In this document: positions 39,501 through 59,617 of the stretch, one piece after another
Numbering within the stretch: the stretch's first letter is position 1
Layout of the letters: the number at the start of each line of letters is the position of its first letter
Assembly: GCA_018818785.1 (NCBI GenBank)
Contig: JAHIRF010000005.1
Span: 339,513-403,512 of the forward strand
DNA from: Thermoplasmatota archaeon
GTDB lineage: Archaea; Thermoplasmatota; Thermoplasmata; UBA10834
Direction of reading: 5' to 3'
DNA: 64,000 nt
The notes under the pieces: generated by a model
What the model saw: the letters and a program-made list of their open reading frames with translations, nothing else
Databases searched by the model: none
What the model was told of the DNA's origin: nothing
Made by a program: the position numbers and the translations under genes

Positions 39501-40757
39501 GTGGGGGATATGCCCATAGCCAGATCCTCCCCCTTGATGCTCCACAGAGCGGTCGTGTTCCACATACATGGGGAACTCCCATTTGAGGCCAGGATGCTCA
39601 TGGAGGATTTCCGCCTGGCCGTCAACTCTGCTATCAGAGCCGGCTTGCATGCGAAGGTAACCTCCAGGAACGCCCTGACGAAGCTGGCGTACAAGGACTT
39701 CAGGATAGAGCACCCGAACATGTATGCTCAGCACCTGGTCTCCTCGTTCGAGGTCGCGGGTTCGGTGCTGAAGAACCTACGAAGGCGTTGGGGAAAGGGT
39801 CCGATTCATCGCATTCCATACGTGCGTCGACTGATGATGAAGGCGGAGAACCAGGCATACAAACTCGACCGGGAGAATGGTGTGGTCGACCTTCCGATAC
39901 GGGCTGGATGTCATGTGAAGCTGAGACTCGTCCTGAGCGATTACCATCGCATCTTTCTGAACGACAAATCCCTCTCCCTCGGTTCACTGACACTCCTACC
40001 TGACAGGGTCATAATAGCCTTCAGGAAGAGTGCACCTAGACCGTACACTCCAGAGACGGCCCTGTCGCTCGATACCAATGAAAGGAGCTTGGACGGCGTG
40101 TTCCTGAGCAAAGGGGGGAGTACGCCGGTTCAAGCAGCATTTCCTGATGTCGCCGTGATCCAGGCACGGCATCACAATCGGCGGAAGCGCCTTCAGAAGA
40201 CGAAAGCGCACGATCGACGGACATCGAGGCGGTTGTGCAACAAAGAGGGGAGGAGGGAACGCTGTCGAATCGAGTACCGTATGCACCAAGTGGCCAACGC
40301 AGTGCTCAGCTTCGCGGAGGAGCACAGGGCGGCGGTCGTGCTAGAGGACCTGAATGGTATGATTGGTCGGAAGCGCGGAAAGTCGTTCAACAGACGATTG
40401 AGTTCATGGCCTCGGAGGAAACTGCACAACATCATCGAGTACAAGGCGGCCTGGAATGGCGTGCCAGTCATCAAGGCCGACCCATACAACAGCAGCAGGA
40501 GGTGCCCGATATGTGGGAGGATAAAACATTCCCGAATGGGCGCCGAGTTCGATTGTGAGTGCGGTTGGCGTGCGGATAGGCATGTCAATGCCGGCATAAA
40601 CCTGTTGCAGACAGCCTTCCCGGAAGGGATGGCAGGGGGCTTACGGTTCAGCCCCGGCGCGTTCCAGCATGACGTTATGATGATCCTCTACGACCCAGAG
40701 ATGGGCGCACGGTCGGAGCCGAATGGAACGAGTCAATCGATGGGGCGGTCATTATGA
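39501..40757 (+). CDS. tnpB: RNA-guided nuclease TnpB (IS200/IS605 family accessory protein)
   Basis: 418 residues, GTG 39501 (ATG 39510 in frame). TnpB proteins are RNA-guided DNA nucleases (ancestors of Cas12) that use an omega RNA from the 3' end of the element. RuvC parts: Asp191 in 'ALSLDTNERSLDGV', Glu282 in 'AVVLEDLNGMIG', and a zinc finger with CPIC (about 340) and CEC (about 355). In the third RuvC motif the usual D-x-N-A is 'RADRHVNAGINLLQ', with His361 at the canonical Asp place and Asp359 two residues earlier. Cleavage activity is therefore uncertain. The C-terminus ends in 'ARSEPNGTS', common in archaeal TnpB of this group. No tnpA. Confidence 0.9.
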   Translation: MGDMPIARSSPLMLHRAVVFHIHGELPFEARMLMEDFRLAVNSAIRAGLHAKVTSRNALTKLAYKDFRIEHPNMYAQHLVSSFEVAGSVLKNLRRRWGKGPIHRIPYVRRLMMKAENQAYKLDRENGVVDLPIRAGCHVKLRLVLSDYHRIFLNDKSLSLGSLTLLPDRVIIAFRKSAPRPYTPETALSLDTNERSLDGVFLSKGGSTPVQAAFPDVAVIQARHHNRRKRLQKTKAHDRRTSRRLCNKEGRRERCRIEYRMHQVANAVLSFAEEHRAAVVLEDLNGMIGRKRGKSFNRRLSSWPRRKLHNIIEYKAAWNGVPVIKADPYNSSRRCPICGRIKHSRMGAEFDCECGWRADRHVNAGINLLQTAFPEGMAGGLRFSPGAFQHDVMMILYDPEMGARSEPNGTSQSMGRSL

Positions 40758-42600: not shown

Positions 42601-43554
42601 TTGAAGATATTAGTCACGGGCATCACGGGCTTTGCAGGGGCACATCTCGCAGCCCTTCTGAAACAACAGGGCGGGGCGGAGATCCACGGCACCAAGCACG
42701 CCTCCGCGAGGATGAGCCCCGTATTCGATTCGTCAGGCATCGTCATGCACGAGCTCGACATGACCGACATGGCTGGAGTGTCCGCCCTGGTCATATCGTT
42801 GCGGCCTGATATCATCTATCACATGGCCGCGTTCGTATCCGTCGCTCGCTCGTTCGAAGAGCCTGCGAGGACCTTCGAGACGAACGTTGTCGGCACCATT
42901 CATCTCCTTGAAGCGGTCAGAAAACACTGCCCGGAAATCAAAGTCGTCATCCCTGGTTCAGCCGAATCATACGGAAAGGTGGATCCTGAATCGATGCCTA
43001 TCAAAGAATCGCAACCGTTGAGGGCCAGGCACCCGTACGGCATGAGCAAGGCCTCGCAGGAGATGGTCGGGCTTTACTATCACGAGGCTTTCGGCCTCAA
43101 GACATATCTAACGCGTTCCTTTCACTATACTGGGCCTGGACAGCCGGCAGGTTTCGTGTGCTCCGATTTCGCGAAGCAGATATCGGAGATAGAGGCCGGG
43201 AAAAAGGAACCCGTGATATCCGTGGGTAACCTGAAGGCGAAGAGGGATTTCCTGGACATCAGGGACGTGGTACGATCGTACACCGCTATCGCGGACAAAG
43301 GTAGGCCAGGTGCGATATACAATGTGTGCAGAGGTGAATCCGTGGCTATATCTGACATCCTCGACATGCTCGTGGGATTGTCCTCGAAGGAGATATCCAT
43401 CAAGGTCGACCCTGCCAAGCTCAGACCGGTCGACGTCCCGGACTTCGTAGGCGACAACGCTCTTCTGAAGGGGGACACGGGATGGACGCCAGAGATCGAG
43501 CTGAGCCGTAGCCTCGGGGATGTGCTGTCTTTCTGGAGGGGGAACCCGGCATGA
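42601..43554 (+). CDS. GDP-4-keto-6-deoxy-D-mannose reductase-like (Rmd-type) extended SDR
   Basis: 317 residues, TTG start with GAGGAGG upstream. 'ILVTGITGFAGAHLAALL' glycine motif, 'DIIYHMAAFVSVARSFEEP', 'KVVIPGSAESYGKVD', 'HPYGMSKASQEMVGLYYHEA' (YxxxK), and the Rmd/GMD-typical '[20 protein letters not shown]'. This pattern is characteristic of Rmd (GDP-D-rhamnose forming) enzymes and their relatives that act on GDP-4-keto-6-deoxymannose. It overlaps the DegT gene by 4 bases, so the two should work on the same GDP-sugar. Substrate by similarity only. Confidence 0.8.
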   Translation: MKILVTGITGFAGAHLAALLKQQGGAEIHGTKHASARMSPVFDSSGIVMHELDMTDMAGVSALVISLRPDIIYHMAAFVSVARSFEEPARTFETNVVGTIHLLEAVRKHCPEIKVVIPGSAESYGKVDPESMPIKESQPLRARHPYGMSKASQEMVGLYYHEAFGLKTYLTRSFHYTGPGQPAGFVCSDFAKQISEIEAGKKEPVISVGNLKAKRDFLDIRDVVRSYTAIADKGRPGAIYNVCRGESVAISDILDMLVGLSSKEISIKVDPAKLRPVDVPDFVGDNALLKGDTGWTPEIELSRSLGDVLSFWRGNPA

Positions 43555-44786
43555 GCGCGAAGGGCCAGAAGTTCGTTCCCGTCGGGGACTTCAGACTCAT
43601 GGAGGACGAGAAGGCTGCGATCATGGAGGTACTCGATAAGGGGAGGATCTCCGAGTGGCAGAAGGTCGCGGAGTTCGAGCGAGTGTTCGCCAAGTACGTG
43701 GGCTCGAAGCATTGCATAACGACAAGCTCCGGTACCTCCGCATTGATCCTATCGCTCCTTGCACTCAGATACGACGGCAGGTGGCCGAGGTTCAAGCATG
43801 GCGGCAAGGTCATAACCTCTCCTGTATCGTACATCGCCACCAGCAATGCACTGTGCCTTTCGAACCTCGAGCCCGTGTACGTCGATATCGACCCCAGGAC
43901 ATTCAAGCTCGACATATCATCTCTTGAGCGTCTCCTCGAAGAGGAGGGTGGCGATACGTTCGCCGGGATGCTGCCCGTCCATCTGATGGGATATCCGAAT
44001 GATATGGACCGGATCACGAAGCTCGCGAACGAGTACGGACTCGCGATCGTGGAGGATTCCGCACAAGCGCACGGCTCGAGATACAACGGCCGCAGGACCG
44101 GCTCGATCGGGATCATGGGCACCTTCTCTTTCTTCATAGCGCACAACATCCAGGCTGGGGAGATGGGATGCGTCACAACGAGCGACGAGAAGCTCCTGAA
44201 GCTGATGAGGCAGTTGAAGGCGAACGGTCGCGTGTGCGACTGTCCCGTGTGCACCCGCTCTGCTGGGATTTGTCCACACCTGGGTCTCGCGGACGAAGGT
44301 GAGGACCTTGACCCTAGGTTCACGCACGAGTACATATCATACAATTTCAAGACTATGGAGTTCCAGGCAGCGCTGGGAGTATGCCAGATGAAGAAGGCCG
44401 ACTGGATTTTCCAGAGGCGGCTCGATAATGTGAAGTACCTCAACGACAAGCTGAAGAAGTTCTCACATGTGCTCGACCTTCCATTGTTCAGCGAGGATGT
44501 GGGCTATCTCGCATACCCACTCGTGCTCAAGGAAGGATGCGGCATATCGCGCCTGAATGCGCGGGAGGGTCTGAGGCAGAAGGGCGTGGAGAACAGGCCT
44601 TTGTACGGCTGCATCCCGACCCAGCAACCAGCGTACGCCGCCTTCAAGGAAAGGTACGAGGGCAGATTGCCGAACGCGGAACGGGTAGGCAGGGACGGGT
44701 TCTACATCGGCTGTCATCAATACCTCGAGAGGGACGACCTCGATCACGTTGTCGAAGCATTCGAGGAGGTCTTCGGCGGGCTCTGA
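43551..44786 (+). CDS. DegT/DnrJ/EryC1 family enzyme with His for Lys, probable sugar 3-dehydratase
   Basis: 411 residues, PLP-fold family of aminotransferases. In the place of the internal-aldimine lysine it has His198 in 'TFSFFIAHNIQAGEMGC' (aminotransferases have K here, for example the nearby PseC with 'SFHPVKHITTGEGG'). In ColD and the E1/RfbH enzymes this histidine makes C3 deoxygenation possible. A cluster of cysteines follows: Cys207, Cys229, Cys231, Cys234 and Cys241 ('RVCDCPVCTRSAGICPH'), which could bind a [2Fe-2S] centre as in E1, although the spacing differs from the described E1 pattern. It overlaps the Rmd-like gene by 4 bases and lies in the GDP-sugar block (gmd, fcl), so a 3,6-dideoxy hexose product is predicted. 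ColD (no Fe-S) is the alternative. Confidence 0.8.
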   Translation: MSAKGQKFVPVGDFRLMEDEKAAIMEVLDKGRISEWQKVAEFERVFAKYVGSKHCITTSSGTSALILSLLALRYDGRWPRFKHGGKVITSPVSYIATSNALCLSNLEPVYVDIDPRTFKLDISSLERLLEEEGGDTFAGMLPVHLMGYPNDMDRITKLANEYGLAIVEDSAQAHGSRYNGRRTGSIGIMGTFSFFIAHNIQAGEMGCVTTSDEKLLKLMRQLKANGRVCDCPVCTRSAGICPHLGLADEGEDLDPRFTHEYISYNFKTMEFQAALGVCQMKKADWIFQRRLDNVKYLNDKLKKFSHVLDLPLFSEDVGYLAYPLVLKEGCGISRLNAREGLRQKGVENRPLYGCIPTQQPAYAAFKERYEGRLPNAERVGRDGFYIGCHQYLERDDLDHVVEAFEEVFGGL

Positions 44787-44813
44787 TTCCAGCGTCACCG
44801 GGTGTGCTTATTC

Positions 44814-46031
44814 ATGAATGTCGCTATCGTCGTCTGGCATCTGGATGTGAAGGGCGGGACACAACGTCAGGCCCTCGAGCTCGCCAGACATCTCAAGTCA
44901 AAAGGGGACGAGGTCACGCTGTACTGCGCGCATCTCGATCGCGACTCATGCTACTCGGAACTCCTCGAAGGGTTGGAGATCGTTTCTTTGCATGGCTCCT
45001 CCAGGCAGCGCCATATGGGAAAGCTGCGCTGGATATCGTATCCTGTGGAACCTTTGTTCGTCGGGGATGAGCGCAGACTCGCGCGTATGATCGGGCATCA
45101 TGACGTGATCAACTGTCACGAGCACAGAGCCTACAGGACCGCATGCTTCCACAGGAAGGCTTCCGGCACGCCGATCGTATGGATGATGAACGACTTGCCT
45201 GCGAGCTTCAAGAAGCCTAGAAGACCGAGGAATCTCAATGCGGTGAAGGACCTCGCACACTACCTGCTCATAGGGGGGCTCATCGGCCGTTGGGTGGATC
45301 TGCGCAGGGTGAAGACGATCGACCGCATCGTGGTGCTCGACAGGCTCAACCACGGCCTGCTATTGAACAACACCGGCATGACGAGCACCGTCATAAGGAG
45401 CGGCCTGGATCTCGCCAAGTTCGGCTTCGTCGAGCGCTCCGCTGCCGAAGCGACCGGCCCGTTCACGATATTCACGATAGGCATATTCTTCCCGCACAGG
45501 CGGTTCGAGGATATGGTGTCTGCCCTCGGGATTCTCAAGAAAGACGGTCGAGACGTGCGCCTCCGTTTGGCTGGTCTCGAATCAAAGGACCGCGTGTACT
45601 CTGCAAGAGTGAGGGCGCTCGTTAGATCGCTGGAACTCGAGGACCGAGTGGAGTTCCTAGGTGCGATAAGCGAGGAGCAGCTGGTGAGAGAATATTCCAC
45701 AGCAGATGCGTTCGCGTTCCCACACAGTCCACAGACATGGGGCTTGGTGGTGTTCGAAGCGATGGCCAGCGGCGTTCCTGTCATCGTCTCTAGAGGTTGC
45801 GGTGCGTCCGAGATGCTGGTCGATGGCGACACGGCTATGCTCGTGGAACCCGCACGGCCTGACGGATTCGCAACGGCGATCAGGAAATTGATGGACGATC
45901 CCTCCCTCAGGAACATGCTGAGCGTATCCGGGAGGAGGTTCGTCGAGGGGAACATACGCTGGGATCTCTACGCCGACAAGATGATGGATGAGTTCACGCG
46001 AGTTTGCGGAAACAAGGAGAGGTGGCCATGA
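44814..46031 (+). CDS. Family 4 glycosyltransferase (GT-B)
   Basis: 405 residues from ATG 44814 (the frame is open from GTG 44802). 'MNVAIVVWHLDVKGGTQRQA' is a good GT-B N-terminus with the GG acceptor loop. C-terminal domain: 'TIFTIGIFFPHRRFEDMVS', 'VEFLGAISEEQLVREYSTA' and the EX7E motif 'WGLVVFEAMASGVPVIVS'. It has no partner in sequence on the other side; it is co-transcribed with the next glycosyltransferase (ATGA overlap) and the previous DegT gene 27 bases upstream. Confidence 0.88.
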   Translation: MNVAIVVWHLDVKGGTQRQALELARHLKSKGDEVTLYCAHLDRDSCYSELLEGLEIVSLHGSSRQRHMGKLRWISYPVEPLFVGDERRLARMIGHHDVINCHEHRAYRTACFHRKASGTPIVWMMNDLPASFKKPRRPRNLNAVKDLAHYLLIGGLIGRWVDLRRVKTIDRIVVLDRLNHGLLLNNTGMTSTVIRSGLDLAKFGFVERSAAEATGPFTIFTIGIFFPHRRFEDMVSALGILKKDGRDVRLRLAGLESKDRVYSARVRALVRSLELEDRVEFLGAISEEQLVREYSTADAFAFPHSPQTWGLVVFEAMASGVPVIVSRGCGASEMLVDGDTAMLVEPARPDGFATAIRKLMDDPSLRNMLSVSGRRFVEGNIRWDLYADKMMDEFTRVCGNKERWP

Positions 46032-47185
46032 GTCCTGGGAAGACATGCATGGTCACTTCTGCCCGGGCGCCTCCGCAGATCGGTGGCACTCCCACAGTCA
46101 TGTACGAGCTGCTACGGCATTTTCCGAAGGATTCTGTATTGCTCGTGACCAAGCACCAGAGCGGTCGGACCTCCGAAGATGACCGTGTGCTCGACATGCC
46201 GACCGTGAAGGTCACGAGGGCCGGCGCGTTCATCTATCCGACGATGTTCCAGCTGCTGCTCATGCCATTGACATTCGTGGAGATGTTGTTCGCTGCGAGG
46301 CGTTCACGCCCCCGATGCATATTCGCGGTCTTCCCTTCTCTCGACTTCCTGTTGTGCTCGCTCGTGCTCGGAAGGCTCATGAACGTATCCGTGTTCGTCT
46401 ACCTGCACGATTGCATCGTCGAGACCGCGGGGAACGCCTTGGAGAGGTTGTTTTCTGATAGAGCTGAGAGATGGACCTTCTCGAAGGCATCCAAAGTCTA
46501 CTCCATGAGCGAACCCATGAAGAAATTCTACGAAGCGAAAGGCCTTCGGACCGAGGTGCTCCCACACGGACTGGATCCGAGTCTGGAACGACTCTCCATG
46601 GCAAGGACGCGTAGCGGTCCGCTCAAGGTTGGCTTCTCAGGCGGCATCTACGAGAACAACCTCCAGGCGATATCCGACCTGCTCGAGGCGAAGAAATCCT
46701 CGGGCGATTCGTTCGAGTTCCATCTTACATGCCCTGCACAATCGGTCGAACTCCTGAAGAGCAGAGGACTTTCGGATTCGATCGATTCGATCAGCACCCT
46801 ACCAACACGGGATGAAGTCATCGATTTCCTGTCCGGATGCGACCTTCTGTTCATACCGATGAGTTTCGAGTCCAAGGTCAGGGAGGATCTGCTGACGATA
46901 TTCCCGACCAAGGTGACAGATTACTGGCTCGCTGGAAGACCGATCCTGGTATACGGTCCAAAGGAGTACTCGTTCGTCCCATTAGCGGAGACGGACGGAT
47001 ATGCAGCCATCGTCTCGGAACGATCTCCTGAGCGACTCGCGGAGGCTATCAATGCCTTGGCGAATTCCCAGGAGACTGCGGATCGGCTCGCTGCCGCATC
47101 TAGTGAGATGGTCCGGAGGCACGATGGTTCCATGATCGCGAAGAGGCTCATGGGGGACCTCGGGCTCATGCGAGCAAAGGGTTGA
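46028..47185 (+). CDS. Glycosyltransferase (GT-B type)
   Basis: 385 residues from ATG 46028, with AGGAGAGG 5-6 bases upstream and a 4-base overlap with the preceding gene. The frame is open to 46004 but the ribosome site decides for 46028. N-terminal domain with 'SARAPPQIGGTPTVMYELL' (glycine loop), a hydrophobic helix near residue 70, and 'IFAVFPSLDFLLCSLVLG'. C-terminal domain 'KVGFSGGIYENNLQ', 'DFLSGCDLLFIPMSFESK' and 'KVTDYWLAGRPILVYGPKE'. GT4-like retaining enzyme with unknown donor. It is followed 46 bases later by gmd. Confidence 0.82.
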   Translation: MSPGKTCMVTSARAPPQIGGTPTVMYELLRHFPKDSVLLVTKHQSGRTSEDDRVLDMPTVKVTRAGAFIYPTMFQLLLMPLTFVEMLFAARRSRPRCIFAVFPSLDFLLCSLVLGRLMNVSVFVYLHDCIVETAGNALERLFSDRAERWTFSKASKVYSMSEPMKKFYEAKGLRTEVLPHGLDPSLERLSMARTRSGPLKVGFSGGIYENNLQAISDLLEAKKSSGDSFEFHLTCPAQSVELLKSRGLSDSIDSISTLPTRDEVIDFLSGCDLLFIPMSFESKVREDLLTIFPTKVTDYWLAGRPILVYGPKEYSFVPLAETDGYAAIVSERSPERLAEAINALANSQETADRLAAASSEMVRRHDGSMIAKRLMGDLGLMRAKG

Positions 47186-47231: not shown

Positions 47232-49236
<2,005 letters not shown>

Positions 49237-49317: not shown

Positions 49318-49890
49318 TCAATGGACTTTCCTGATGAGCCAAAAGACGGCTTCCATGAAATTCCTGGCGACGAAATCCGGTTTGACCGAGGCGCTGTCGA
49401 CCTCCGGATCTTGCGCGGACATCCCAGGTTCCGGGACCAGGATGCTCTTTGCCCCTATCTCGAGCGCCACCTCTATGTCCGCGATCCTGTCCCCGATGAT
49501 GACGGACCTCTTCAAATCGATCCGATGCTTCTCAGAACCCTCGAGGAGCATCTGGGATGTTGGCTTGTGCCCATTGTCTCCGCCGTTCTCTGGGGTGGGG
49601 ATGTGGGGGCAATATAAGATGTCCCTTATCTTCACGCCGTTCTGGGACAGTATCTCGAGGATGCGGTCGTGTATCTCACCCTGCTCATCCTCGGTGAACT
49701 GTGACCTGCCATTATCCGATTGAGTTGTGATTATGAAGACTGGCAGGCCTGTATGGTTCAGTCTCTTGAGCCCGTCCAGAACGGTCGGGATGAATTCAGG
49801 ATCTCTATTCCCGTCCTGGTCGAGCCTAGCAAAACACATCGTACCGTCACGGTCAACGAAGACCGCGGGCCCATTGCCCTCATCCATCAT
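49318..49890 (-). CDS. HAD-family phosphatase, GmhB-like (histidinol-phosphatase type)
   Basis: 190 residues; ATG 49890 with a box A at 49914-49923 predicting a leaderless transcript. HAD motifs: 'AVFVDRDGTMCF' (DxDGT), 'LPVFIITTQSDNGR' (motif II T), the Zn-site region 'ILYCPHIPTPENGGDNGHKP' and 'SVIIGDRIADIEVALEIGAKS' (motif IV). GmhB acts on heptose 1,7-bisphosphate and is common in sugar-nucleotide clusters. The zinc loop is not the canonical CxH-x-CxC form and the substrate is not certain. A dead relative's 3' end is at 50075-50180. Confidence 0.8.
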   Translation of the reverse strand: MMDEGNGPAVFVDRDGTMCFARLDQDGNRDPEFIPTVLDGLKRLNHTGLPVFIITTQSDNGRSQFTEDEQGEIHDRILEILSQNGVKIRDILYCPHIPTPENGGDNGHKPTSQMLLEGSEKHRIDLKRSVIIGDRIADIEVALEIGAKSILVPEPGMSAQDPEVDSASVKPDFVARNFMEAVFWLIRKVH

Positions 49891-56664: not shown

Positions 56665-57456
56665 TCATCCGTCCAAGTCGTTCTCGCCATCGGCGAGAGA
56701 ATCATCTTCAAGGGATTTCTGGTATCCCGCATCCCTCGGGATTCCCCGATTGATGTCCGCCAACTCGGGCATCCTCGAAAGCAGTTCGAGGACCTCCTCG
56801 GTCGTGAAGAAGCGCCCCTCCTCGTACAGATGCTTGTGGATCTCTCTCACGAGCTCGAGGTCCCTCTCCTCGTCGACGCTCCATCTGTACGACGAACAGT
56901 CGCGGTCCATCCCGACCGCCCCTATACGGAACAGGTGCTCGTTCTTCCATATGTACGGCGTCACGTGCTCCCGTTCGGATTTCAGTCTCGCTTCCCTCCA
57001 CGCCCTTTCAAGGGCTGCGAAGGAGAACACCTCGGTATCCAGGCCGTTCGGGTACCTGCTGGGCCTCGCCATCCCGACGTAGTCGTACTTGTCACTGTTG
57101 TCGATGTAGTGGCGGACCATTCGGTCGATCAGCTGTGGGTCGATGAGCGGACAGTCGGCGGTTATGCGGACGATCACGTCGGCGCGGTAGGCCTTGGCGG
57201 CCTGGTAATATCGGTCAAGGACGTCATCCTCGCTCCCACAGAACGTGCCGACTCCGTTCTTCTCGGCCAGGTCCTTGACGGCCCGGTCCTCTTCATTCGT
57301 CGTCGTGGCGACCACGACCGTTCCGACCTCGGCACACCCTTTGGCGCGGTTGACCACATGCCACAGCATCGGCTTTCCTGATATCAACTTCATGACCTTG
57401 CCAGGGAGTCTGGACGACCCCATCCTGGCCTGGATGATCATGACGACCCTGCTCAT
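56665..57456 (-). CDS. pseF: CMP-sugar cytidylyltransferase (PseF/SpsF type)
   Basis: 263 residues. Activates a nonulosonic acid with CTP. 'VVMIIQARMGSSRLPGKVM' is the nucleotide-binding start (SpsF/PseF signature QARMxSxRLPGK), 'SGKPMLWHVVNRA', 'DVIVRITADCPLIDPQLID' (metal-binding DCP), 'YPNGLDTEVFSFAALERAW' and 'YRWSVDEERDLELVR' (VDxxxD). Overlaps pseI by 4 bases on the same strand. Position in the pse cluster supports CMP-pseudaminic acid or a related sugar; sequence alone cannot fix the isomer. Confidence 0.87.
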   Translation of the reverse strand: MSRVVMIIQARMGSSRLPGKVMKLISGKPMLWHVVNRAKGCAEVGTVVVATTTNEEDRAVKDLAEKNGVGTFCGSEDDVLDRYYQAAKAYRADVIVRITADCPLIDPQLIDRMVRHYIDNSDKYDYVGMARPSRYPNGLDTEVFSFAALERAWREARLKSEREHVTPYIWKNEHLFRIGAVGMDRDCSSYRWSVDEERDLELVREIHKHLYEEGRFFTTEEVLELLSRMPELADINRGIPRDAGYQKSLEDDSLADGENDLDG

Positions 57457-58472
57457 AGGTCCACCACTTCCTCCGTGAGAAGATCACCCTTCCTCAGGGC
57501 GCGTTTCGTCGCGCGCCCGATGATCGTCTCGAATCTCTTAGGAGGGATGGCACCTTCCGGCGCAGGCCTCACTATCATCAGAAGACCCCTTTCCAGGAGG
57601 GCGCCCTTCGGGATGTCCTCCGCCGCGTATATGGCTCTTCTCTGAAGCCGCGTGACGACATCTCTGCCCGAAGGCTCCAGACTACCGTCGCCCAACATCC
57701 TCTCGACCTCCCGTATCCCGAGGACCATCTTCCCGAACTCGTCTGGCTCCGTCGCGTAGGAGTGGTCGGGCCCCGCGAGCTTTCTGGATGTCGTGAGATG
57801 CTTCTCGATGATGTTCGCACCCATCGCGACAGCTGCAGTCGCCGCTCCAGCGATGGTCGTGTGGTCGGAAAAGCCGACGGGGCACCCGAATTCCGTCTTG
57901 AGAGTCAGCATGGCCCTCAGGTTCAACTCGTCCACCTCTGTGGGATACTGAGAGATGCAGTGGAGCAGCGCGACACTCGCGTTGCCCGTAGCGTGGGCCG
58001 CGTCGACGGCGTCCCGTATCTCAGACTCGTTCGCCATCCCAGTGGAGAGCAACATCGGCTTCATCTTGGTCGCGACGTACCTGATCAACGGGATGTGGTT
58101 GAGCTCTGCGGACGCTATCTTGAACGCCGGTGCCCCTAGCCCATCGACAAAATCCGCCGACTCCTCGTCGAAGACGCTCGTGAGGAACACGATCTTTCTG
58201 TGTTTCGCGTGATTCATCAGCTCCTCGTGCCATTCTCTGTGCAGCTCGATCCCGGACAACAGTTCGACCGTGTCCTTGTTTGTGAACTCGTTGTACAATC
58301 GTTCCGCCTCGAAGGTCTGGAACTTCACCGCGTCGGCGCCCGCGTCCGAAGCGGCGTCTATCAACTCCTTCGCTTGGTCCAACTTGCCGTCGTGATTCGA
58401 CCCTGCCTCTGCGATTACGAAGCAGGGATGCCCGTCGCCGATTTCTCTGTCCCCTATCCTGATGCTGGCCAT
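57453..58472 (-). CDS. pseI: Nonulosonic acid synthase (PseI/NeuB family)
   Basis: 339 residues. Condenses phosphoenolpyruvate with a 6-carbon amino sugar to form a nonulosonic acid. 'CFVIAEAGSNHDGKLDQA' (NeuB start with the EAGxNHxG metal site), 'GADAVKFQTFEAERLY', 'KPMLLSTGMANESEI', 'LLHCISQYPT', 'GFSDHTTIAGAATAAVAMGA' and 'NIIEKHLTTSRKLAGPDHSYA', then a C-terminal SAF (antifreeze-like) domain from about residue 275 ('AIYAAEDIPKGALL'). Placed between pseC (gap 11) and pseF (overlap 4). PseI is favoured over NeuB/LegI by the adjoining PseB. Confidence 0.9.
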   Translation of the reverse strand: MASIRIGDREIGDGHPCFVIAEAGSNHDGKLDQAKELIDAASDAGADAVKFQTFEAERLYNEFTNKDTVELLSGIELHREWHEELMNHAKHRKIVFLTSVFDEESADFVDGLGAPAFKIASAELNHIPLIRYVATKMKPMLLSTGMANESEIRDAVDAAHATGNASVALLHCISQYPTEVDELNLRAMLTLKTEFGCPVGFSDHTTIAGAATAAVAMGANIIEKHLTTSRKLAGPDHSYATEPDEFGKMVLGIREVERMLGDGSLEPSGRDVVTRLQRRAIYAAEDIPKGALLERGLLMIVRPAPEGAIPPKRFETIIGRATKRALRKGDLLTEEVVDL

Positions 58473-58483
58473 TCAAATCCTCT

Positions 58484-59617
58484 TCAGGGTTCCTTCTTAT
58501 CGTAAGCCGCGAGCTTGTCACAGATGAACCTGACGTCCTTCTCTTCGAGCGAGGGGTGAAGCGGCAGAGTCAGTATCCTCTGGAACACGTCTTCGGTTAC
58601 CGGGAAATCCTTTGGACTCAACTTGAACCTTCCTCTGTAGTAGGTGAACCTGTATGTCGGTATGTAATGGACGTGAGCGCCGATGCCGTGCCCCCTCAGA
58701 TATTTGAAGAGCCCGTTCCGGTCCTTCCCGTTCACCAGGACGGTGAACAGGTGCCAAGCGTGCTTGACGTCCCCGTCGACCTCGGGCGGTTCGACGTACT
58801 CGATGCCAGGCAGCGTCTCCTGGTACATCTTCGCCAATCGGGTCCTCTCGTCAATGAACGATTCCAGCTTGGCCAGTTGTGATATTCCGAGGGCGCATTG
58901 GAGATCCGTTATCCGGTAGTTGTGGCTCAGCGCGCTCACATCGTAGACATAGTCGAGCCCCTTCTCCAAGCCCTCCGGAGTCTCCTTGGTTATTCCGTGA
59001 TGCCGCAGCATCTTGAGTCTGCCATCAAGATCCTCGCTATCCGTCATGACCGCCCCGCCTTCGCCCGTCGTGATGTGCTTCACCGGGTGGAAGCTGAAAA
59101 TGGTCATATCGGCGAAAGTGCCGACCTTTCTGCCGCGGTATTCCGCCCCGAGGGCATGGCATGCATCCTCTATCAGGTGCAGGCCGTGTTGGTCTGCGAT
59201 CTCCCTCATCTCGTTCATCCTGCACGGATGTCCAGCGTAGTCGACGTAGATGACGGCCTTCGTGTTCTTCGTGATATTCTTCCTCACACTCTCAGGGTCT
59301 ATGTTCCGCGTTCCCGGTTCTATGTCCGCGAAGACCGGCTGGAGGTTGTTGTGCAGAATGGAATTCGCCGTCGCCACGAATGTGAACGGGGTTGTGATGA
59401 CCTCCGAGCCTCGAGGCAGGTCGAGCGCCCTCACCGCGATGTCCAATGCACTAGATCCCGAGCTGATGACTGTCGCGTGCTTCGCCCCGACTCGGTCACA
59501 CAAGGCTTCCTCGAACTCGCGGACCTTGGGGCCGGTGGTGATCAGGTCGCTCCTGAGCACCTTCGCTACCTCTTCTATATCAGCATCGTCGATGTTCTGG
59601 CGCCCGTAGGGTATCAT
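58484..59617 (-). CDS. pseC: DegT-family aminotransferase, probable PseC
   Basis: 377 residues, PLP-dependent. Amino group transfer to the C4 keto sugar produced by PseB. 'AKHATVISSGSSALDIAVRAL', 'VITTPFTFVATANSI', 'IEDACHALGAEYRGRKVG', and the PLP lysine in 'TIFSFHPVKHITTGEGGAVM' (contrast with the His in the gene at 43551). ATG 59617 overlaps the stop of the 57-residue frame upstream (ATGA), so translation may be coupled. 'UDP-4-amino-4,6-dideoxy' product inferred from family and neighbours. Confidence 0.87.
   Translation of the reverse strand: MIPYGRQNIDDADIEEVAKVLRSDLITTGPKVREFEEALCDRVGAKHATVISSGSSALDIAVRALDLPRGSEVITTPFTFVATANSILHNNLQPVFADIEPGTRNIDPESVRKNITKNTKAVIYVDYAGHPCRMNEMREIADQHGLHLIEDACHALGAEYRGRKVGTFADMTIFSFHPVKHITTGEGGAVMTDSEDLDGRLKMLRHHGITKETPEGLEKGLDYVYDVSALSHNYRITDLQCALGISQLAKLESFIDERTRLAKMYQETLPGIEYVEPPEVDGDVKHAWHLFTVLVNGKDRNGLFKYLRGHGIGAHVHYIPTYRFTYYRGRFKLSPKDFPVTEDVFQRILTLPLHPSLEEKDVRFICDKLAAYDKKEP

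Follow-up and report, generated by a model that had tools for sequence, protein, structure and literature searches.

A clade of predicted GDP-sugar 3-dehydratases with a histidine at the lysine position and a conserved four-cysteine loop

The locus and the histidine at the lysine position

The window, by which we mean the whole stretch of 64,000 nucleotides that was analyzed, comes from a contig of a Thermoplasmatota archaeon. On its + strand, at 43551 to 44786, it carries an intact gene for a 411-residue protein, exactly where the first-pass annotation had put it. This protein has the DegT/DnrJ/EryC1/StrS fold (PF01041, 284.6 bits, E 1.7e-84 in a Pfam search, where the gathering score is 19.8 bits) and it is predicted to be a PMP-dependent GDP-4-keto-6-deoxy-mannose 3-dehydratase. 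Its start overlaps by 4 bp (ATGA) the stop of a gene at 42601 to 43554 (+), the product of which has as its best PDB match 2pk3, a GDP-6-deoxy-D-lyxo-4-hexulose reductase (1.1e-77), and is without the epimerase Cys and His of Fcl; we predict that this RMD-like 4-ketoreductase is the non-epimerising partner. Directly downstream of the dehydratase gene are two genes for GT4-type glycosyltransferases, at 44802 to 46031 (+; PF00534, PF13439) and 46004 to 47185 (+; PF13439). These are followed by gmd at 47232 to 48287 (+), which codes for a GDP-mannose 4,6-dehydratase (TIGR01472, 487.8 bits, cut-off 415) that would supply GDP-4-keto-6-deoxy-mannose, and by a gene for an Fcl-type GDP-4-keto-6-deoxy-mannose epimerase/reductase at 48289 to 49236 (+), which matches the GDP-fucose synthases in the PDB (best 8.8e-63) and has the Cys/Tyr/Lys/His catalytic residues (TCYKH). 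Elsewhere in the window there is a gene for a GmhB-like HAD phosphatase (49318 to 49890) and, inside the glycan gene region, one that was read from its sequence as a TnpB-like transposase (39501 to 40757). On the - strand, at 56665 to 59617, genes for a NeuB family protein, a DegT aminotransferase, and a cytidylyltransferase lie together beside dTDP-rhamnose-type genes, which suggests a pathway for a nonulosonic (legionaminic/pseudaminic-type) acid.

When the dehydratase was compared by sequence with all PDB chains the best matches were to E1 (RfbH/AscC, CDP-6-deoxy-L-threo-D-glycero-4-hexulose 3-dehydrase; 3bcx, 8.5e-58, and 3bb8, 1.5e-56), followed by ColD (GDP-4-keto-6-deoxy-mannose 3-dehydratase; 2gms, 1.3e-50), the identities being about 30% and 28%, respectively. 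The PLP-aldimine lysine that marks the sugar aminotransferases is absent. In its place is His198 (codon at 44142 to 44144, +), which aligns with His220 of E1 and His188 of ColD and is invariant, together with Asn199 and Gln201, in all 80 relatives described below. The chain 3bb8 is the H220K mutant of E1 and its mutant lysine falls in the same column as His198; the H188K mutant of ColD (3gr9) is also among the PDB matches. The claim of the first-pass annotation that His198 replaces the PLP lysine, as it does in ColD and E1, is therefore confirmed, and the protein bears the mark of the nucleotide-sugar 3-dehydratases (the E1, ColD, and SpnQ group). Automatic annotation based on the family only would label the proteins of this clade as aminotransferases.

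The AlphaFold2 model of the protein (pLDDT 96.2, pTM 0.93) is about equally close to GDP-perosamine synthase (PerA; 3bn1, 3dr4; Z 50.5, rmsd 1.5), to E1 (Z 49.3), and to ColD (Z 49.0), and two of these three, PerA and ColD, act on GDP-4-keto-6-deoxy-mannose. PerA, the closest by structure, is a transaminase that has the PLP lysine and, unlike the protein described here, a short loop free of cysteine.

A separate clade and its cysteine loop

When 84,980 species genomes were scanned with a profile, 80 loci were obtained with relatives that are 45 to 58% identical. Their bacterial carriers are Nitrospirota, Planctomycetota (Scalindua), Chloroflexota, Omnitrophota, Bacillota, Thermodesulfobacteriota, and Elusimicrobiota, and the archaeal carriers are methanogens, Methanoperedens, Lokiarchaeota, and several DPANN phyla; the clade is also on two viral contigs. 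Within the window's own class its distribution is patchy, with a clade member in 7 of 300 genomes, the matches in G044 and G213 being more distant. In maximum-likelihood trees these proteins make up one side of a branch with an SH-aLRT support of 98 to 99, and this branch persisted when the cysteine loop and the active-site columns were removed. E1 and ColD group together (99 SH-aLRT) apart from the new clade. A branch with a support of 99.6 divides all the His-type proteins from the lysine aminotransferases that were sampled, and since the tree is unrooted either one or two origins of the histidine would fit. Three lobes meet near one node, namely, E1 with ColD, the lysine aminotransferases, and the new clade with viral proteins and the L011/L112 pair. 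When the cysteine-bearing forms (the new clade, E1, and L011/L112) were constrained to group apart from ColD, L013, and the lysine types, the log-likelihood was lower by 38 with an AU p value of 0.07, so that one origin of these forms is disfavoured without being rejected. The tree that the first-pass annotation had called for thus places the protein outside E1, ColD, and the sampled lysine types in a well-supported clade of its own and not with true aminotransferases. In a literature search that extended to only a minority of subscription papers no description of this clade was found, and it is a widespread and apparently uncharacterised branch.

Several related proteins were also noticed. 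L011 (1438 to 2679), from an archaeon of the same class, and L112 (6007 to 7212), on a plasmid of Solidesulfovibrio magneticus, form a smaller sister pair; the L112 copy is flanked by genes annotated as GDP-L-fucose synthase and NAD-dependent epimerase/dehydratase. One of the two viral members of the clade is on a 173-kb contig (L004/L108, IMGVR_UViG_3300028920_000029), where gmd, the 3-dehydratase gene, and an Fcl-type gene are in tandem (about 3977 to 7111 of L004), followed by genes that were named CMP-sialate-synthetase-like and NeuB-like by reading of the sequence. The other (L005/L109, IMGVR_UViG_3300035698_011700; 2187 to 6188 of L005) is just downstream of phage genes for the two terminase subunits, small and large (PHROGs 51 and 38). 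Synechococcus phage S-CAM7 (L113, 3088 to 6942) has a cassette of gmd, GDP-fucose synthase, GT11, and a cysteine-free, ColD-like dehydratase of the His type that sits on a long branch in the tree. A plasmid of the haloarchaeon Haladaptatus pallidirubidus (L115, 1007 to 4137) has gmd, a reductase gene, and a ColD-like, His-type dehydratase gene in tandem, the last being annotated merely as an aminotransferase. Four viral contigs (L006, L007, L008, and L110) code for His-type DegT proteins that share IGCHQ with the new clade and have no loop cysteines, and these are possibly another lineage of 3-dehydratases.

The clade is marked by a loop that in the window protein (44235 to 44273, +) has the sequence C229-D-C231-P-V-C234-T-R-S-A-G-I-C241, the four cysteines of which are candidate ligands of an Fe-S cluster (or of Zn). 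In the alignment the exact spacing C-x1-C-x2-C-x6-C is found in 74 of the 80 relatives, with Cys229, Cys231, and Cys241 each kept in 79 and Cys234 in 75. The motif was also present in all four held-out members (L120 to L123), which come from other genomes of the class and had no part in defining it. Its conservation in the relatives and in the held-out genomes is far beyond chance. The first-pass annotation had counted five clustered cysteines. All five are where it put them, but only the four of the loop are conserved as a motif; Cys207 is rejected as a ligand because it is Cys in only 4 of the 80 relatives and Ala in 74, and because the cluster-free ColD has a Cys in that column too. Cys388 was likewise rejected as cluster-linked because, though 79 of 80 relatives keep it, its motif IGCHQ is also in the loop-less viral proteins L006 to L008 and L110. 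Cys354, which is present in 67 of the 80, was considered too.

At the corresponding position E1 has a loop that is likewise rich in cysteine (GRxCxC). The [2Fe-2S] motif of E1 reportedly has the spacing C-x57-C-x1-C-x7-C. In the sequence of E1 Cys193 is within EDCCDALG and the loop is C251-Y-C253-A-P-G-C257-D-N-T-C261, where C257 is extra to the motif; C251, C253, and C261 occupy the position of the loop cysteines here. The column of Cys193 is Ala171 in our protein (among the 80 relatives Ala in 66, Ser in 13, and Cys in one), a difference that the first-pass annotation, which had noted the other spacing, had missed, and hence the arrangement is not that of E1: judged from the sequences, all four candidate ligands are within a single loop with the pattern CxCx2Cx6C. 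The L011/L112 pair is also without Cys193 and has the loop CxCx2Cx8C. Some members of the clade depart from the motif. Four DPANN relatives keep only three loop cysteines with the spacing CxCx9C, and Cys39 and His254 (columns 39 and 254) are candidates for a compensating ligand in them. In L089, the only relative that is missing any of C229, C231, and C241 and the sole one with a Cys at column 171, all four loop cysteines are lost together, as is expected if they act as a unit. The three-cysteine DPANN members and L089 show that a cluster would not be universal within the clade. From the position and conservation of these cysteines it is probable that the loop holds an Fe-S cluster.

Gene linkage and the predicted substrate

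Genes for GDP-mannose metabolism recur next to the dehydratase gene in the relatives. In 38 of 71 loci gmd, fcl, or an RMD-like gene lies immediately upstream and in 23 of 74 immediately downstream, while at a distance of four genes the count is 0 of 94. Within 1.5 kb a gene of this type is found in 57 of 83 loci, contig ends having cut many of the others. Such a set, gmd with a ColC/Fcl-type enzyme, is what ColD has in its cluster, and it is present both in the window (47232 to 49236) and in the relatives. An RMD-like gene is directly upstream in L028 and L031 too, which are the closest relatives. The neighbours of E1/RfbH, namely, rfbF, rfbG, and rfbI, make up a different set: rfbF and rfbG are each in 6 of the 83 loci, nearly always beside a separate E1, and a homologue of the E3-type reductase (RfbI) was not found in any of the 83. 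In the genome from which the window comes, the sole match to PF00970 (FAD_binding_6) and to RfbI is a subunit in a hydrogenase-type operon on another contig.

Six loci also contain a true E1. In four of them (L041, L042, L046, and L098) E1 and CDP-glucose genes (rfbG in all, rfbF in three) are on the same contig stretch where the new enzyme adjoins fcl with gmd nearby, a layout that speaks for distinct GDP and CDP arms. These mixed loci are the best argument that the new enzyme and E1 use different nucleotide sugars. We consider it very likely that the substrate is a GDP sugar and, with equal confidence, that the reaction is a 3-dehydration; the GDP sugar is very probably GDP-4-keto-6-deoxy-mannose. 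The suggestion in the first-pass annotation of a distinct variant of the ColD/E1 type that works on a GDP sugar supplied by gmd is supported by the separate clade, the gmd/Fcl/RMD linkage, the best matches to E1 and ColD, and the conserved loop.

The partner reductases are of two kinds. All 36 Fcl-type proteins in which both sites were readable, including the one in the window, have the epimerase Cys and His, whereas the RMD-type neighbours all lack both residues. We therefore predict products of the colitose type (L) with Fcl, that is, GDP-colitose, and GDP-3,6-dideoxy-D-mannose with RMD. Since the overlapping partner in the window is RMD-like, 3,6-dideoxy-mannose in the D configuration is for this locus a more plausible guess than colitose.

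The proposed reaction and its alternatives

In the literature that was consulted the characterised sugar 3-dehydratases are E1, which acts on a CDP sugar and has an Fe-S cluster, SpnQ of spinosyn biosynthesis, which acts on a dTDP sugar and has an Fe-S cluster, and ColD with its Campylobacter relatives, which act on GDP sugars and have no Fe-S cluster. In E1 and ColD, PMP forms a Schiff base at C4, the cofactor is deprotonated by the histidine, and the C3 hydroxyl is lost; in the route of E1 and SpnQ the intermediate is then reduced by electrons that arrive through the Fe-S cluster, while in the ColD route it is hydrolyzed to an enamine and glutamate restores PMP (PMC8987622). The new protein has the histidine of these enzymes but, by its sequence, is neither an RfbH, the score and motif of which it does not reach, nor a cysteine-free ColD. 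We take as a working model SpnQ, a [2Fe-2S] PMP enzyme that is served by general ferredoxin or flavodoxin pairs (PMC8987622). SpnQ differs in its dTDP substrate and, according to the literature, has the motif of E1; it was compared by description only, and a Streptomyces RfbH-type protein (L114) stood in for it.

On this model PMP would form a Schiff base with the 4-keto group of GDP-4-keto-6-deoxy-D-mannose, and His198 would act as the base that takes a proton from the cofactor as the C3 hydroxyl leaves, as in E1 and ColD. Cys229, Cys231, Cys234, and Cys241 would hold the Fe-S cluster, through which electrons from a ferredoxin-like general donor would reach the PMP-bound intermediate to give GDP-4-keto-3,6-dideoxy-mannose. 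Reduction at C4 by the RMD-like enzyme of the overlapping upstream gene would turn this into GDP-3,6-dideoxy-D-mannose (tyvelose-type); relatives that have an Fcl partner would make GDP-L-colitose. The adjoining glycosyltransferases would then move the sugar onto a surface glycan. The conserved loop argues for the E1/SpnQ route. With no E3 homologue in the 83 loci, a redox cluster in the loop would have to draw on a general donor, as described for SpnQ, and Fe-S chemistry fed by a general ferredoxin is likely. The whole of this proposal, a GDP-linked PMP 3-dehydratase that draws Fe-S electrons from a general donor and makes a sugar for a surface glycan, is the explanation that we favour, with a confidence somewhat better than even. 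What counts against it is that no E3-type reductase turned up in the 83 loci, that the three-cysteine DPANN members and L089 lack the full loop motif, that two glycosyltransferase genes separate the dehydratase gene from gmd in the window, that ColD needs no cluster for a substrate of this kind, and that the model is as close to GDP-perosamine synthase as to E1 and ColD.

The alternative that survives best, though we consider it unlikely, is a ColD-like GDP-sugar 3-dehydratase in which glutamate, as in the ColD-type enzymes (PMC10440746), regenerates PMP without external electrons and the four cysteines bind a zinc ion with a structural role. The predicted substrate and the Fcl/ColC-type partners are the same as those of ColD, and an HQ near the C-terminus is common to ColD (VGNHQ) and our protein (IGCHQ). 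The lack of a dedicated reductase in the 83 loci and the members with three loop cysteines or, like L089, with none keep the ColD route in contention. Against it, the loop occupies the place of the [2Fe-2S] ligands of E1, with GRxCxC in both, and ColD and the cysteine-free His-type proteins L006 to L008, L110, L113, and L115 indicate that the fold needs no metal there. ColD itself has neither the loop nor a cluster and is on a separate branch.

It is improbable that the substrate is another GDP sugar such as GDP-4-keto-6-deoxy-heptose, which is used by the Campylobacter C3-dehydratases. Relatives of ColD with that substrate do exist (PMC10440746) and the GmhB-like phosphatase gene is nearby, but the window gmd is above the cut-off for GDP-mannose 4,6-dehydratase and genes of the gmd/fcl/RMD type recur as neighbours in unrelated genomes. 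A little more improbable still is that the protein, in spite of the missing lysine, is an aminotransferase for an amino sugar of the perosamine type. The fold is nearest to GDP-perosamine synthase, by a small margin, and Gln172 is in place of Asp194 of E1, as in many aminotransferases; however, none of the 80 relatives has a lysine at the PLP position, E1 and ColD have no transaminase activity, and E1 H220K is non-catalytic (PMC8987622). SpnQ does transaminate in the absence of its reductase (PMC8987622). Least probable of all is an E1/RfbH orthologue that acts on CDP-4-keto-6-deoxy-glucose and has a cluster motif that has shifted slightly, because, even though the best match by sequence is E1 in the PDB and RfbH in NCBIfam, the RfbH score (NF011936) is 227.8 bits, far below the curated cut-off of 423, Cys193 is absent, the clade is separate with E1 nearer to ColD, most loci are without CDP-glucose genes, and true E1 genes occur beside the new enzyme.

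A GDP-linked clade with its own cysteine arrangement would fill the combination, GDP with Fe-S, that is missing among the characterised enzymes. We give an even chance to the broader proposal that these proteins are a third class of PMP 3-dehydratases, GDP-linked and Fe-S-driven, with all four ligands in a single loop in place of the split motif of E1 and a general ferredoxin as donor, that serves archaea, anaerobic uncultured bacteria, and some viruses for making the colitose or 3,6-dideoxy-D-mannose of surface glycans. The clade lends itself to asking under which circumstances the deoxygenation requires electrons and under which glutamate is enough, and the mixed clusters (L041, L042, L046, and L098) and the natural cysteine-loss variants (L089 and L096) offer ready comparisons. 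Tyvelose, paratose, and abequose are found primarily in Salmonella and Yersinia (PMC7725333). The clade predicts that many archaea and uncultured bacteria would have 3,6-dideoxyhexoses in their glycans.
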